Shown here: positions 249-35,749 of the stretch, in pieces
Layout: the number at the start of each line of letters is the position of its first letter
Position numbering within the stretch: the first letter of the stretch is position 1
The notes under the pieces: model-generated
Databases searched by the model: none
What the model saw: the letters and a program-made list of their open reading frames with translations, nothing else
Told to the model about the DNA's origin: nothing
Origin: Aphanocapsa sp. GSE-SYN-MK-11-07L
GTDB taxonomy: Bacteria > Cyanobacteriota > Cyanobacteriia > Thermosynechococcales > Thermosynechococcaceae
Direction: 5' to 3'
NCBI GenBank assembly: GCA_019359715.1
Contig: JAHHGS010000033.1
Span: 1 to 64,000 of the forward strand
DNA: 64,000 nucleotides
Program-made: the position numbers and the translations under genes

Positions 249-335
249 GCCCAACAAGGGCTTGCAGCGGATGGCCGCAACACTCTGGTTATGGCTCCAA
301 GACTTTCCCCACCGCTGAAGCCCACGCCGTTGGGC
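249..335 (+). other. Integron attC recombination site
   Basis: The outer boxes are exact inverted copies. R'' is GCCCAAC at 249-255 (consensus RYYYAAC) and R' is GTTGGGC at 329-335 (consensus GTTRRRY). Inside them, L'' at 258-270 (GGGCTTGCAGCGG) pairs with L' at 312-323 (CCGCTGAAGCCC) over 12 bp and leaves one unpaired G, the extrahelical base typical of attC sites. The 87-bp length, the central spacer and the position just after a stop codon all fit. Cleavage would fall between G329 and T330, which makes the downstream prolyl-tRNA synthetase gene the next cassette. Confidence 0.88.
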
Positions 336-458
336 GCTTACCTCTTGTTAAGAAATGTCAAATACCCGAAGGCAAACTTTATAGCTCGACCATCAGTAGA
401 TAAGTTGTGTACATTATGGAGGCAGGTTCTAACTGAAAATTTTAGCCATAAAGAGTAA

Positions 459-1901
<1,443 letters not shown>

Positions 1902-1931
1902 GTTGCCACGTGCCATGTTGCCCCACGCCGC

Positions 1932-1951
1932 GCCCAACAAGGGTTTGCAGC
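1932..1951 (+). other. Truncated attC (left half only)
   Basis: GCCCAAC at 1932-1938 followed by AAGGGTTTGCAGC repeats the left half (R'' plus L'') of the attC at 249, with one base changed in L''. It starts 30 bp after the proS stop codon, where a cassette's attC should begin. No matching L' (GCTGNAACCC-like) or GTTGGGC box follows. The GTTAGAT at 1990-1996 fits GTTRRRY but does not pair well with R''. The right half therefore seems deleted or replaced. Confidence 0.65.
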
Positions 1952-2364: not shown

Positions 2365-4977
2365 CTAGGCAATTTGGAAGTCAGTGGCTTGCAGAGAGGG
2401 TGTATCAACGGTGGCAAACTGGGAACCTGTGCCCAAGCCAGCTTGGCTACTATTCTGGTTATAGAACAAGCTGCCGCTGCCTCGATTGAACACAATTTGG
2501 GCAGAGCTGGTTGCTGCTTGCAAGTCGTTCTCGACGATCGCAAACTCTCCAGCCGTGCTAAACCCCTGACCGACGGCACTGGTCAAAGACGAGAATATCG
2601 CTTTGTTCAGCACAATCTTGTCGAGTCCACTGGCAAAGCCAACAATCTTGTCGAGACCGCCGCCAGCAATCAGCAGATCATTGCCGCCACCGCCAATTAA
2701 GAGGTCATCACCACTGCCGCCAGTCAAGGTATCGTTGCCATCGCCGCCGCGCAGCGTGTTACCGCTATCGGCGCTAGGTGCAGTCGGAGCTGCCAGACCA
2801 ATCAGGTTGAATCCGCCCTTGCCGATTTCGCCCAAAGACGTGGCTGCTCCGGTGGAGAGGTCAATGCTGTACAGAGTGGAGCCAGAGGTAGCATAGGCAA
2901 AATTTACGCCATTGATTGGAGAGAAGATATCAAAGCCACTGCTGGCTCCAAAGTTAACGCCCAAGGCACCAATGGTGGTCAATTTGCCGTCATTGGGCGG
3001 ATTTTGCAGCACCAGAACATCCAAATTGGCATCAATTCCAAACAGTTGAGTTGTGCGCGTGGGTGGGATGACTCCGGTGGGAGAAGGCGGGCCAAAGAAG
3101 GCGTTAGTGTAAGCAACAGCAGTGATATTGGGGTCTTGACCGAAATTGCGATCGCCCATTGAGTACGACACATTTTTGTCTGGCTCAATGGCAGGCGTCG
3201 TTAGGTCAAAATCGCCGATCGCGCCAGTATCCACGTTTACCCGCAGGTTTTGATCGTTGCTGCCGACTAGGCGCAGGCGATCGGGTACGGGGTTAAAGTC
3301 TACGCCAGACTGCTGCCCAGCATTAAAGTTAATCGGAGAAAGGGCGCTGACCAAGCTGGCGACGCCAGTGCTGGCATTAATCGTGTAGATTTTATTGGTA
3401 TCGGTGATACCGTAGAGCAGCCCATTGGCCGGGCGGAAATCAATCCCCAGTAGGTTGCCGTCAACGCCTGTTACCTGGATTGTCTGCGCCTGGTCGATTT
3501 GATCAGGGTCAAACGCAATCAGGGCATTTCGATCCGTCAGACCAAACAGCGTCGTGCTGCTACCACCCAGCAGCAAGTCATTGCCATCGCCGCCGTTCAG
3601 CTTGTCGCTGCCCAGACCACCAATCAAGAGGTCGTTGCCGCTGCCACCCCATAGGAAGTCATTGCTGCTACCTCCATCTAGGCTGTCGTTGCCGCTGCTG
3701 CCGCTCAGGGAGTCGATGTCAGCGCCGCCCCGCAGGCTGTCATGAAGATTCCCACCGTCGAGATTGTCATTGCCCAGACCACCGATCATCCGGTCATTGC
3801 CATTGCCGCCGCGCAGGAAGTCATTGCCGTTGCCCCCGTTCAGGACATCTTGGCCGTCGTCGCCCTTGAGGGTATCTTGGCCATCATTGCCCCGCAGAGT
3901 GTCATTGCCATTGCCGCCCGACAGCAAGTCGTCGCCTAGTCCACCCACAAGCAAGTCGTTGCCATTGCCACCCTGGAGGATGTCATTGCCTTCCGCTCCC
4001 GACACAGTGGTGGCGGCCAAACCCAGCAGTTTAAATTCGCCATTGCCAATCTGCCCCAAAGACTTGGCTGCTCCGGTCGAGACGTCAATGCTATACAGGG
4101 TGGAACCAGAGGCAGCGTAGGCAAAATTTACCCCATTTACTGGGGAAAAAATGTCAAAGCCGCCCTTGGTGCCAAAGTCAACACCCAACGAGCCGATCGT
4201 CGTCAATTTGCCATCATTCGGCGGATTTTGCAGGACTAGGGTATCTAGTTTAGAGTCAATCCCAAACAGTTGAGTTGTGCGGCTGGTGGAGGGAGCGCCA
4301 GCAAAAGCGTTAGTGTAGGCAACAGCGGTAACATTCGGGTCTTGACCAAAATTGCGATCGCCCATTGGGTACGACACATTTTTGTCTGGTTCAAAGGCAG
4401 GTGTGGTGAGGTCAAAGTCGGCGATCGCTCCCGTATCGACATTCACCCGCAGGTTTTGATCGTTGCTGCCGACTAGTCGCAGGCGATCGGGCACCGGGTT
4501 AAAGTCTACGCCAGACTGCTGTCCGGCGTTGAAGCCAATCGGTGAAAGCGGGCTGACTAGAGTGGCAATTCCGGTTTTAATATCAATCGTGTAAATCTTG
4601 TTGGTATCAGTGATGCCGTAGAGCAATCCGTTGGCAGGGCGAAAATCAATCCCGATCAAGTTGCCATCTACGCCCGTGACTTGGATCTTTGTTGTCTGTT
4701 TAGGGTGGCTGGGGTCAAAGGCAACCAGCCGATTTTGATCTGCTAGCCCCAGCAATTGACTGTCACCGTTAGCCAGCAGAATGTCATCACCATCGTCACC
4801 CTTCAGAACATCGCTACCCAGTCCACCCGACAGCGTGTCGTTACCGCTACCTCCACTGAGTAAATCGCGATCGCTGTTTCCATTTAGAACATCATTTCCG
4901 CCCAGCCCAAAAATCAAGTCTCTGCTGGAAGTGCCCCGCAGTGTCTCTGCTTGGGAGGAACCAAAGATCGTCGCCAT
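2365..4977 (-). CDS. RTX-repeat protein with two DUF4394 domains
   Basis: This 870-residue protein is probably exported by a type I secretion system. Nonapeptide RTX repeats (GGxGxDxLx), which bind calcium in this family, occur near residues 10-65, about 335-475 and about 745-790. Between them lie two DUF4394-type domains with repeated NGLLYGITDTNKIYTI and RLRLVGSNDQNLRV motifs. The C-terminus lacks RTX repeats and resembles RTX secretion-signal regions. There is no Sec signal. I place the start at 4977 because AGGAG stands at good spacing before that ATG; an in-frame ATG 60 bp upstream lacks this. No secretion genes are adjacent. Its biological role is unknown; adhesion or S-layer-like functions are guesses. 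Confidence 0.85.
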   Translation of the reverse strand: MATIFGSSQAETLRGTSSRDLIFGLGGNDVLNGNSDRDLLSGGSGNDTLSGGLGSDVLKGDDGDDILLANGDSQLLGLADQNRLVAFDPSHPKQTTKIQVTGVDGNLIGIDFRPANGLLYGITDTNKIYTIDIKTGIATLVSPLSPIGFNAGQQSGVDFNPVPDRLRLVGSNDQNLRVNVDTGAIADFDLTTPAFEPDKNVSYPMGDRNFGQDPNVTAVAYTNAFAGAPSTSRTTQLFGIDSKLDTLVLQNPPNDGKLTTIGSLGVDFGTKGGFDIFSPVNGVNFAYAASGSTLYSIDVSTGAAKSLGQIGNGEFKLLGLAATTVSGAEGNDILQGGNGNDLLVGGLGDDLLSGGNGNDTLRGNDGQDTLKGDDGQDVLNGGNGNDFLRGGNGNDRMIGGLGNDNLDGGNLHDSLRGGADIDSLSGSSGNDSLDGGSSNDFLWGGSGNDLLIGGLGSDKLNGGDGNDLLLGGSSTTLFGLTDRNALIAFDPDQIDQAQTIQVTGVDGNLLGIDFRPANGLLYGITDTNKIYTINASTGVASLVSALSPINFNAGQQSGVDFNPVPDRLRLVGSNDQNLRVNVDTGAIGDFDLTTPAIEPDKNVSYSMGDRNFGQDPNITAVAYTNAFFGPPSPTGVIPPTRTTQLFGIDANLDVLVLQNPPNDGKLTTIGALGVNFGASSGFDIFSPINGVNFAYATSGSTLYSIDLSTGAATSLGEIGKGGFNLIGLAAPTAPSADSGNTLRGGDGNDTLTGGSGDDLLIGGGGNDLLIAGGGLDKIVGFASGLDKIVLNKAIFSSLTSAVGQGFSTAGEFAIVENDLQAATSSAQIVFNRGSGSLFYNQNSSQAGLGTGSQFATVDTPSLQATDFQIA
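2790..3550 (-). repeat. Internal duplication, DUF4394 copy 2
   Basis: This segment encodes the second DUF4394 domain of the RTX protein. At both DNA and protein level it closely matches 4010-4755, with long stretches identical, for example around NAGQQSGVDFNPVPDRLRLV. It differs by a short Pro-rich insertion near GVIPPT. Approximate limits were judged by eye. Confidence 0.75.
4010..4755 (-). repeat. Internal duplication, DUF4394 copy 1
   Basis: This is the N-terminal partner of the repeat at 2790-3550, in the same orientation and about 1.2 kb away. An RTX block lies between the copies. The arrangement indicates duplication within the gene of a unit made of RTX repeats plus DUF4394. Confidence 0.75.
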
Positions 4978-5352
4978 AGCTGTAACTCCTAAAAATTTAA
5001 TTTGTCTTCCGGTTGATTTCAGCCCGATCGGCATCACCCTCTGCTTAAACCCAGCGGGTGACAGGCGGATTGTCCGCCCAGCTTTTAATGCCTTAGGGGT
5101 TTTAAGAACCCGCTAAGAATTGCGAATTTTGTCAGCAAACCTGGAGCAGACCAGCATCCGGTTGCCTGCTGTCATAACTAGCAGTCAACTTGTTTGAAGT
5201 TGAATTGTTGTTCCAGTTCTATAGGTACTACCCGCTAGAGCGCCGAATGGATGCAGCAGCACTAAAAAAAGTTTGATTTGGGCTGATATTAATCCGGTTT
5301 ATTTTGTAAAACCCTTAGTTTGTAAGGGTTTTACAAAATAAACGATTCCCAT
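4978..5352. other. Intergenic region upstream of the RTX gene
   Basis: This 375-bp gap holds the RTX ribosome-binding site (AGGAG just above 4977), a short GGCGGA-ttg-TCCGCC hairpin near 5074-5088 and the strong terminator at 5298-5342. No credible ORF is present on either strand. I could not identify a promoter with confidence. Confidence 0.5.
5298..5342. terminator. Strong palindromic terminator
   Basis: A perfect 20-bp stem (5298-5317 against 5323-5342) encloses a 5-base loop. Its A/T-rich outer arms give a U-run in either direction. It begins 11 bp past the stop of the minus-strand transporter gene and insulates it from the RTX gene. Confidence 0.85.
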
Positions 5353-32989: not shown

Positions 32990-33478
32990 GCTAGGGTTGC
33001 TCCTAATTTATACGAATTCAAAATTACAGAAATCAGGTTTCCTAATTGCTGATAGATCTATCAGACCATCACCAATAATTTATGACTAATTAGGGTCAGA
33101 TCATTCTTGGCAAGTAGTAGTCTTAGTTACTATTTTCTAAGTTGAAACCGTCTGGAATCAAAGTTTTTATTTATGTTAAGTATAAGCGACGACCCGCTTA
33201 TGAATATTTATTAAAATTTGTTTAAAAATGAACAATCTGACTTAATTCTGCTATGCCAGAAGGCTTGATTGCGGTAGACAATTCAAACATCTTAATTATT
33301 GTTAATTAGCTGAAAACACTGGAGCAGGCTTCTATAATTCATTAAAGAGAACTCCTGCCCGCCAGTCCTCATGGCTTAACTTGATGTCTTTTGCGCCCAA
33401 CAGGCTACTGTTCAGTGCAATCTAAGGTTGGCAGGAGTTAATTTCGTTCCTTTTTTGTCTAAAGAGAGGAGAGTCTCG
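32990..33478. promoter_or_regulatory. psaA upstream region with candidate -10 box
   Basis: This A/T-rich, gene-free 489-bp stretch separates the divergent lipoprotein gene from psaA. TATAAT at 33333-33338 is a good -10 candidate and would give a leader of about 130 bases. No good -35 hexamer stands 17 bases upstream, which is not unusual for regulated psaA promoters. AGAGGAG before the ATG at 33479 is a clear ribosome-binding site. Confidence 0.45.
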
Positions 33479-35749
33479 ATGACAATTAGCCCACCGGAGC
33501 GAGACAAAAAGGTCAAGGTTGTTGTAGATAGAGACCCGGTGCCCACTTCTTTCGAGAAGTGGTCTAAGCCGGGGCACTTTGAGCGCACCTTGGCTAGAGG
33601 TCCCCAAACCACAACTTGGATTTGGAACCTCCACGCTCTCGTCCATGATTTTGATACACACACAGATAGCAGTCTGGAAGATGTATCCCGCAAGATTTTC
33701 AGCGCTCACTTTGGCCACCTGGCCGTTGTGTTCGTCTGGCTCAGCGGGATGTACTTCCACGGTGCCAAATTTTCAAATTACGAAGCCTGGATGACCAATC
33801 CTACAGGCATTAAACCCAGTGCTCAGGTGGTTTGGCCAATTGTTGGTCAAGGCATTTTGAACGGTGATGTCGGCGGCGGCTTCCACGGAATTCAGATCAC
33901 CTCTGGTCTGTTCCATCTGTGGCGCGCTTCTGGATTCACCAACGGGTTCCAGCTTTACTGCACTGCCATTGGCGGTTTAGTCATGGCTGGCTTGATGTTG
34001 TTTGCTGGCTGGTTCCACTACCACAAGGCAGCTCCCAAACTGGAATGGTTCCAGAATGTTGAGTCAATGATGAACCACCACCTAGCAGGCTTGCTGGGCT
34101 TGGGTTCGCTTGGCTGGGCTGGGCATCAAATCCACGTTTCATTGCCGATCAACAAGCTGTTGGATGCCGGTGTTGCAGCGAAAGATATTCCGCTGCCCCA
34201 CGAGTTTATCCTCAACCCCAGCTTGATGGCAGAGCTGTATCCCAAGGTGGAATGGGGAATTCCGCAAGGTGTTGTGCCTTTCTTTACGTTTAATTGGGGA
34301 GCCTATTCTGACTTCCTCACCTTCAAAGGGGGCTTGAACCCAGTGACGGGTGGTCTGTGGCTGTCTGATACGGCCCACCATCACCTGGCGATCGCGGTTC
34401 TGTTCATCATCGCTGGGCATATGTACCGCACCAATTGGGGTATTGGCCACAGCATGCGGGAAATTCTGGAGGCCCATAAAGGCCCCTTCACTGGAGAGGG
34501 TCATAAAGGTCTTTACCAAGTTCTCACCACCTCTTGGCACGCTCAACTGGCGCTTAACTTGGCCATGTTAGGGTCACTGACGATTATTGTCGCCCACCAC
34601 ATGTACTCGATGCCGCCCTATCCCTATTTGGCGACCGACTACCCCACCCAGTTGTCACTGTTTACCCACCACATGTGGATCGGTGCTTTCTGTATTGTTG
34701 GCGGTGCTGCTCACGGTGCCATTTACATGGTGCGGGATTACGATCCGGTGGTGAATCAAAATAACCTCCTGGATCGGGTGCTTCGTCATCGGGATGCGAT
34801 TATTTCTCATCTCAATTGGGTCTGTATTTTCCTCGGCTTTCATAGCTTTGGGCTATACGTCCACAACGATACGATGCGCGCCTTTGGCCGCCCGCAAGAT
34901 TTGTTCTCCGATACGGGGATTCAACTTCAGCCCGTATTTGCCCAATGGATCCAAAATCTGCACACCTTGGCACCAGGGACGACTGCGCCCAATGCGGTTG
35001 AGCCTGTTAGCTATGCCTTTGGTGGCGGCGTATTAGCCGTGGGTGGCAAGGTAGCCATGATGCCGATCGCCTTAGGGACGGCCGACTTTATGGTGCACCA
35101 CATCCACGCCTTTACGATTCACGTGACAGTGTTAATTCTGCTGAAGGGTGTGCTGTTTGCCCGTAGCTCTCGTCTGGTTCCAGACAAGGCTAACTTGGGC
35201 TTCCGCTTCCCCTGCGACGGCCCCGGTCGGGGTGGCACCTGCCAGGTTTCTGGCTGGGATCACGTTTTCCTCGGTCTGTTCTGGATGTACAACTGTATTT
35301 CCATCGTGATTTTCAACTTTAGTTGGAAAATGCAGTCGGATGTCTGGGGTACAGTTGCGCCCGATGGCACGGTTTCTCACATTACTGGCGGAAACTTTGC
35401 CCAAAGCGCTCTGACCATCAATGGCTGGCTCCGGGATTTCCTGTGGGCGCAAGCCTCGCAAGTGATTGGCTCCTATGGTTCAGCCCTGTCGGCTTACGGC
35501 TTACTGTTCTTGGGTGCCCACTTTGTCTGGGCCTTCAGCTTGATGTTCCTGTTCAGCGGTCGCGGATACTGGCAAGAGCTGATTGAGTCCATTGTTTGGG
35601 CCCACAACAAGCTCAAAGTTGCGCCAGCTATCCAACCCCGTGCGCTCAGCATCATTCAAGGACGGGCGGTGGGCGTCGCTCACTACCTCCTGGGAGGAAT
35701 TGCCACAACCTGGGCGTTCTTCTTGGCTCGCATCATTTCAGTAGGATAG
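33479..35749 (+). CDS. psaA: Photosystem I P700 apoprotein A1
   Basis: PsaA forms, with PsaB, the thylakoid reaction-centre heterodimer that binds P700, most photosystem I chlorophyll, phylloquinone and the FX cluster. The start [20 protein letters not shown] fits known PsaA proteins and has a strong AGAGGAG before it. The frame extends 51 bp further upstream, but that part is not conserved. The 756-residue length is normal. Eleven membrane helices and many His ligands are evident. FX ligands are Cys579 and Cys588 in [10 protein letters not shown]. psaB follows after 19 bp. Confidence 0.98.

Follow-up and report, generated by a model that had tools for sequence, protein, structure and literature searches.

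The first few hundred bases of contig JAHHGS010000033.1 from Aphanocapsa sp. GSE-SYN-MK-11-07L contain, at positions 249-335 of the + strand, a hairpin that an initial annotation read as a canonical integron attC site in a cyanobacterial chromosome. This raises the question of whether the hairpin is a genuine recombination site or an ordinary dispersed repeat and, if it is genuine, of what kind of integron surrounds it. We analyzed the whole 64-kb stretch of DNA (hereafter the window, whose base 1 is also base 1 of the contig) together with the rest of the genome assembly, which spans 5.1 Mb and is 99.5% complete. The window encodes PsaA (33428-35746), so the host is indeed a cyanobacterium.

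The site is 87 bp long and consists of R'' (249-255), L'' (258-270) with an extrahelical G, a variable terminal structure, L', and R' (329-335). R'' (GCCCAAC) and R' (GTTGGGC) are, as annotated, inverted copies of each other, complementary at 7/7 positions, and they fit the consensus RYYYAAC/GTTRRRY. The predicted fold also agrees with the annotated L arms: GGGCTT[G]CAGCGG pairs with CCGCTGAAGCCC over 12 bp and leaves one G unpaired. Beyond this pairing come an A bulge and three additional pairs. The attC sites of class 1 plasmid integrons (for example the cmlA1 and aadA2 sites, L180 and L181) have the same R''/L''/L'/R' order and, like the site at 249-335, have one additional base 8 nt past R'', on the L'' side. 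They differ in being mobile and associated with resistance genes, in their length (60-70 bp) and in an L'-R' spacing that is 2 nt shorter. A small departure from the canonical layout concerns the unpaired spacers that separate the R and L arms, which are 2/5 if the 12-bp L pairing is drawn or 5/8 if 9 bp are drawn, against 5/6 in canonical plasmid sites; the L-side spacer is 2 nt above the usual length. Integrases use the bottom strand of attC, and the bottom strand of this site has the more stable predicted DNA fold (-21.9 kcal/mol, z -2.9, compared with -19.2 kcal/mol, z -2.1, for the top strand). The cut is predicted between G329 and T330. An upstream frame on the same strand has its stop at 235-237, 11 bp ahead of R'', which bears out the annotated position directly after a gene.

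A scan of the window against Rfam at the gathering threshold gave no match, and we therefore built the attC covariance models in this analysis, with a short calibration and leaving the host genome out of both. Model R1 was trained on an alignment of canonical-geometry sites that came from the surroundings of intI genes of other cyanobacteria and from plasmids with class 1 integrons, and model R2 was built from 47 cyanobacterial hits. The initial annotation had named a covariance-model search as the check on its reading. R1, an independent model, has a single match in the window, at exactly 249-335 (36.5 bits, E=2.6e-6 over 206 kb), and R2 gives the same site 44.9 bits (E=9.5e-8, genome-wide). 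When we scanned the window for R boxes combined with a bulged L arm, this was again the sole site, and none of 150 dinucleotide-matched random windows (9.6 Mb) contained one with as high a score. The chance expectation for such a site is near zero. The paired arms also covary: arm-pair covariation is 0.408 among the attC sites of cyanobacterial relatives and 0.342 among those of the host genome, whereas slid versions of the same arms reach at most 0.146 and 0.119, respectively.

The surroundings of the site form a broken array, with the + strand order IS end, GNAT tail, attC, proS, half attC, 90-bp element and intI fragment. The window begins, at the contig edge, with the probable C-terminal end of an IS transposase (1-105, +, VKAWNRRRNRQKNLIDWSFTRQDADQKLGRHYVA followed by a stop), which we take to resemble IS630; a Pfam search with this 34-aa tail gave no match. 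Next comes the C-terminal tail of a probable GNAT acetyltransferase (106-237, +, LITRSTRVTKVKFYQKFDFESVGEVFASSMTDVPHIKMQKEMM followed by a stop), the IS-cut cassette gene to which attC 249-335 would belong. It matches the C-terminal end of the Pfam profile Acetyltransf_10 (E=0.076) and the aminoglycoside acetyltransferase 3f5b (E=0.4), both weakly, and with scores this low for such short tails the GNAT-like and transposase identities are no more than probable.

The following cassette extends from 330 to 1938 (+), that is, from the TTGGGC of attC 249-335 through the R'' of a truncated second attC. R' at 329-335 is perfectly complementary to R'' at 1932-1938, as expected for the two ends of one cassette. 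Between them lies a complete proS gene (462-1901, +) encoding a type I prolyl-tRNA synthetase (ProRS) of 479 aa. The second attC is a half site (1932-1951, +) with R'' and part of L'' only. It matches the first bases of attC 249-335 at 19 of 20 positions, its remainder is lost, and the covariance-model search gave no match at its position. There are four copies or part-copies of this attC subfamily in the genome (two in the window, one on contig C148 and one on C103), and a match to the attC start on contig C91 covers 19 bp only.

Further along, an N-terminal fragment of intI (2102-2248, +) is a pseudogene truncated past about 52 residues. It matches TIGR02249 (2.3e-9) and PF13495 (1e-10), and its DNA is 79-80% identical to the full-length intI genes on contigs C82 and C21. 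An insertion element of about 90 bp (2014-2101, no strand assigned) sits at its start. With a first cassette truncated by an IS, a second attC of 20 bp and a mere fragment of intI, the array is a remnant and not a complete integron. The initial reading as an integron attC is supported, with the correction that the site lies in a degraded remnant and not in a working integron. A complete integron has an intact intI next to attI and the cassette array, where this locus has just the 52-residue fragment at 2102-2248, the full-length intI genes being on other contigs. CALIN are defined by the lack of intI and by a minimum of two attC sites separated by less than 4 kb, and here a single complete attC lies 1.6 kb from a half attC of 20 bp. 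The remnant shares with CALIN the presence of attC sites and cassettes without a complete intI nearby, and CALIN are thought to be degraded integrons; in a published survey they average almost 6 attC sites, whereas the window keeps one and a half site of 20 bp. The order in which the array was broken is something that we infer rather than read from it directly.

The ends of the 90-bp element read TACCAAAACTTG...GGTA. A second copy, 95% identical, is found on contig C54 (L204 11456-11551, -), where it breaks the 5' part of another intI fragment at the same position, and both junctions carry TCA. The shared insertion point looks as if a single intI::element had been split by rearrangement, or as if the element had recombined. 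The remnant adjoins a gene for an 890-aa protein (2365-5037, -) in which two DUF4394 domains alternate with ten stretches of RTX calcium-binding repeats.

The cassette ProRS resembles the enzymes of Thermus, archaea and eukaryotes. It scores 587 bits against TIGR00408 (cut-off 437), matches PDB 1h4q end-to-end (645 bits across residues 5-479) and has the domains PF00587, PF03129 and PF09180 (catalytic, anticodon and C-terminal) of a full-length type I enzyme. The host has an intact native ProRS gene of the bacterial type on contig C105, so the cassette encodes an extra copy of another structural type. The nearest relatives of the cassette ProRS are in Acidobacteria MAGs (82% identity), and in a ProRS tree the cassette copy is sister to one Acidobacteria MAG (100/99) inside 38 acidobacterial rows (99/88). 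Clear relatives were found in 18 of 385 other cyanobacterial genomes, at 53-65% identity; 17 of these genomes are outside the class of the host and none is in its family. Judging from these sequences, proS is of foreign origin and was most likely acquired horizontally from an acidobacterium. No attC was found flanking the acidobacterial and chloroflexal proS homologues (one 17-bit match, E=0.52), which gives no indication that proS had been a cassette in those donors before. The simplest reading is that an acidobacterial-type proS was captured into a cassette. An integron cassette can therefore carry a translation enzyme of essential function and foreign origin. We regard this acidobacterial origin as one of the less expected features of the locus, and we found no description of a ProRS cassette in the largely open-access literature searched.

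The initial annotation had looked to further sites in the genome, with or without intI, for support, and both are present. Besides three full-length intI genes, the host carries one copy broken by an IS, as well as fragments. The full-length genes have the IntI-specific insert, and the product of the copy on contig C60 aligns end-to-end with IntI4 (2a3v), the nearest solved relative (320 bits). In the C82 copy, a Y replaces the catalytic H. This copy, which adjoins mutS, and the C21 copy are near-identical genes at contig ends with a common upstream repeat (L038 48-1148 and L037 16156-17127). As for attC, we count about 16-19 strong sites in the host and, with R2, 26 loci at E<0.01 on more than 20 contigs. 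These 26 comprise 20 singles and three pairs; contig breaks may conceal bigger arrays. Many of the sites directly follow same-strand ORFs, and the adjacent genes, which include typical cassette genes, encode a nucleotidyltransferase, HNH, VOC-type, RibD-C and MerR-TipAS proteins, and HigBA. The HigBA toxin-antitoxin pair on C103 (L041 8072-8544, -) runs directly into an attC that belongs to the subfamily of the window site and has a degraded R'.

Integron logic makes a further prediction. The final R' bases at a given site derive from the following cassette, so that their predicted partner is the R'' one site further on. We scored 4 positions in 38 pairs of neighbouring sites from cyanobacterial arrays. 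The R' end matches the R'' of the next site at 3.13 of the 4 positions, compared with 2.29 for its own R'', 2.23 for other R'' in the same locus and 2.09 under permutation. None of 10,000 permutations reached the observed value (Wilcoxon p=0.002). The window locus scores 4/4 for both its own and the next R''. Since R' ends match the next R'' better than their own, we have direct evidence that these cyanobacterial segments are true site-specific cassettes joined at G^TT, and not ordinary dispersed hairpins.

These results leave very little room for the hairpin being an ordinary dispersed repeat, whether REP/MITE-like or a terminator hairpin, with no link to integrons. Related copies do stand alone at other genomic positions (C148, C103), and many cyanobacterial genomes have similar sites dispersed through them, as would be expected of a repeat. 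However, the layout of the R and L boxes, the extrahelical base and the covariation all speak against it, as do the intI genes in the genome, the intI fragment nearby and the many sites behind same-strand ORFs, and the cassette-end matching of neighbouring sites largely refutes it. Moreover, a copied hairpin would keep its outer pairs, whereas the outer four R pairs are disrupted in about one third of the cyanobacterial attC sites while the L pairs are kept. Such breakage of the outer R pairs would follow from an R' end that belongs to the next cassette. We therefore hold with confidence that 249-335 is a genuine attC, that of an IS-truncated GNAT-like cassette, followed by a complete, horizontally acquired type I proS cassette in a remnant array.

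A genuine attC may still be a dead fossil, with proS a passenger retained by chance, and we consider this quite possible, if somewhat doubtful. Its neighbours are truncated on both sides, the locus lacks an intact intI and the L-side spacer is overlong; on the other hand, R'' and R' are perfect complements in a stable predicted fold, the proS frame is uninterrupted over its full 479 aa, and full-length intI genes persist elsewhere in the genome. It is rather unlikely, by analogy with other accessory translation enzymes on cassettes, that proS confers tolerance to a natural inhibitor of the bacterial-type ProRS. The intact native enzyme, to which the cassette adds a second one of a different structural type, would suit such a role, and accessory peptide deformylases on integrons offer a published precedent (PMC12690207). 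Against it, no promoter-like site was found on the + strand of the 126-bp proS leader. A second ProRS would plausibly benefit the host through tolerance of this kind, or not at all.

For the genuine attC that we favour at 249-335, recombination would follow the usual integron mechanism, in which the hairpin formed by the folded bottom strand is bound by IntI at its R and L boxes, and strand exchange takes place between the G and the TT of the R box. The IntI would have to be provided in trans, by full-length genes located on other contigs (C60, C21). Precise excision of the proS cassette would no longer be possible because its downstream attC is incomplete, and attC 249-335 itself could still be usable as an insertion target.

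How common are such sites in the phylum? Integron cassettes had been described in the initial annotation as rarely discussed in cyanobacteria, but their attC sites are not a novelty. Cyanobacteria are on lists of integron-bearing phyla (PMC8618304, PMC2426708, PMC9668308), an attC model specific to Cyanobacteria dates from 2021 (PMC8352920; also PMC9176274), and the site at 249-335 adds one more to those already published. It shares with the Cyanobacteria-type chromosomal attC (PMC8352920) the phylum, the architecture and the chromosomal location, and differs in that it belongs to a remnant of two cassettes that keeps a fragment of intI. It is a well-tested case from a phylum whose integrons, although known, have received little study, and cassette logic holds for the sites of that phylum. 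Among 58 relatives, 48 gave attC matches with our models, as did 49 of the 194 genomes sampled across the phylum (36 of 96 genera), whereas an intI that passes the curated cut-off is present in 23 of 386 genomes. No attC match was obtained in five complete genomes of a single genus, which argues against a high rate of false positives.

Many of these sites are isolated. Of the 41 strong attC (E<1e-6) in three near-complete relatives, 15 have no second site within 10 kb, which we consider another less expected feature; one near-complete relative has a nine-site cluster. The isolated sites fit cassette insertion outside arrays, with the decay of old arrays as the alternative. Insertion of cassettes at attG sites is reported from E. 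coli experiments by Loot et al. 2024, as cited in later papers (PMC12444791, PMC12901181), and it would account for single chromosomal attC without arrays. We tentatively suggest, at somewhat less than even confidence, that cassettes are scattered in many cyanobacteria, often singly, having been inserted at non-attI (attG-like) sites by a sporadically present integrase, and that the window locus is one decaying pair with a foreign translation enzyme. We found no description of scattered single cassettes in cyanobacteria in the same, largely open-access literature. Should the scatter indeed stem from cassettes entering outside arrays, cyanobacteria would preserve in their genomes a natural trace of a process for which E. 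coli experiments have so far been the main cited source. In one complete genome of 2.8 Mb (G398), a VapBC-like toxin-antitoxin pair is accompanied by a single isolated attC of 74.5 bits (L219 1501-2565). In an empty-site comparison of this cassette (G398:C1:2440357) with ten congeners, synteny stops about 130 bp before the attC and is not resumed within about 6 kb.

Two other loci of the host genome are worth recording. Just upstream of two intI copies (L036 9100-9350 on C60 and L204 11650-11860 on C54) there are imperfect palindromes spaced by 41 bp, with GTTAGRYGGAT...RTCCGYCTAAC-like ends, which also occur at L198 7509 and 7550 and could represent either an atypical attI region or a dispersed repeat. 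A candidate attC at 9249-9318 of C60 lies inside these palindromes, spaced there by about 41 bp, upstream of intI; it had no covariance-model match and was dropped. Contig C94 carries a class D beta-lactamase gene (L207 5246-6142, -) nearest to the OXA-2/OXA-46 group (PDB 1k38, 361 bits; NCBIfam OXA-2_like, 302 bits). The gene, which has ureC/MerR-TipAS on one side and clpP on the other, starts 110 nt past the R' box of an attC. Enzymes of the OXA-2/OXA-46 group occur on mobile integrons, and this gene may be a chromosomal relative.
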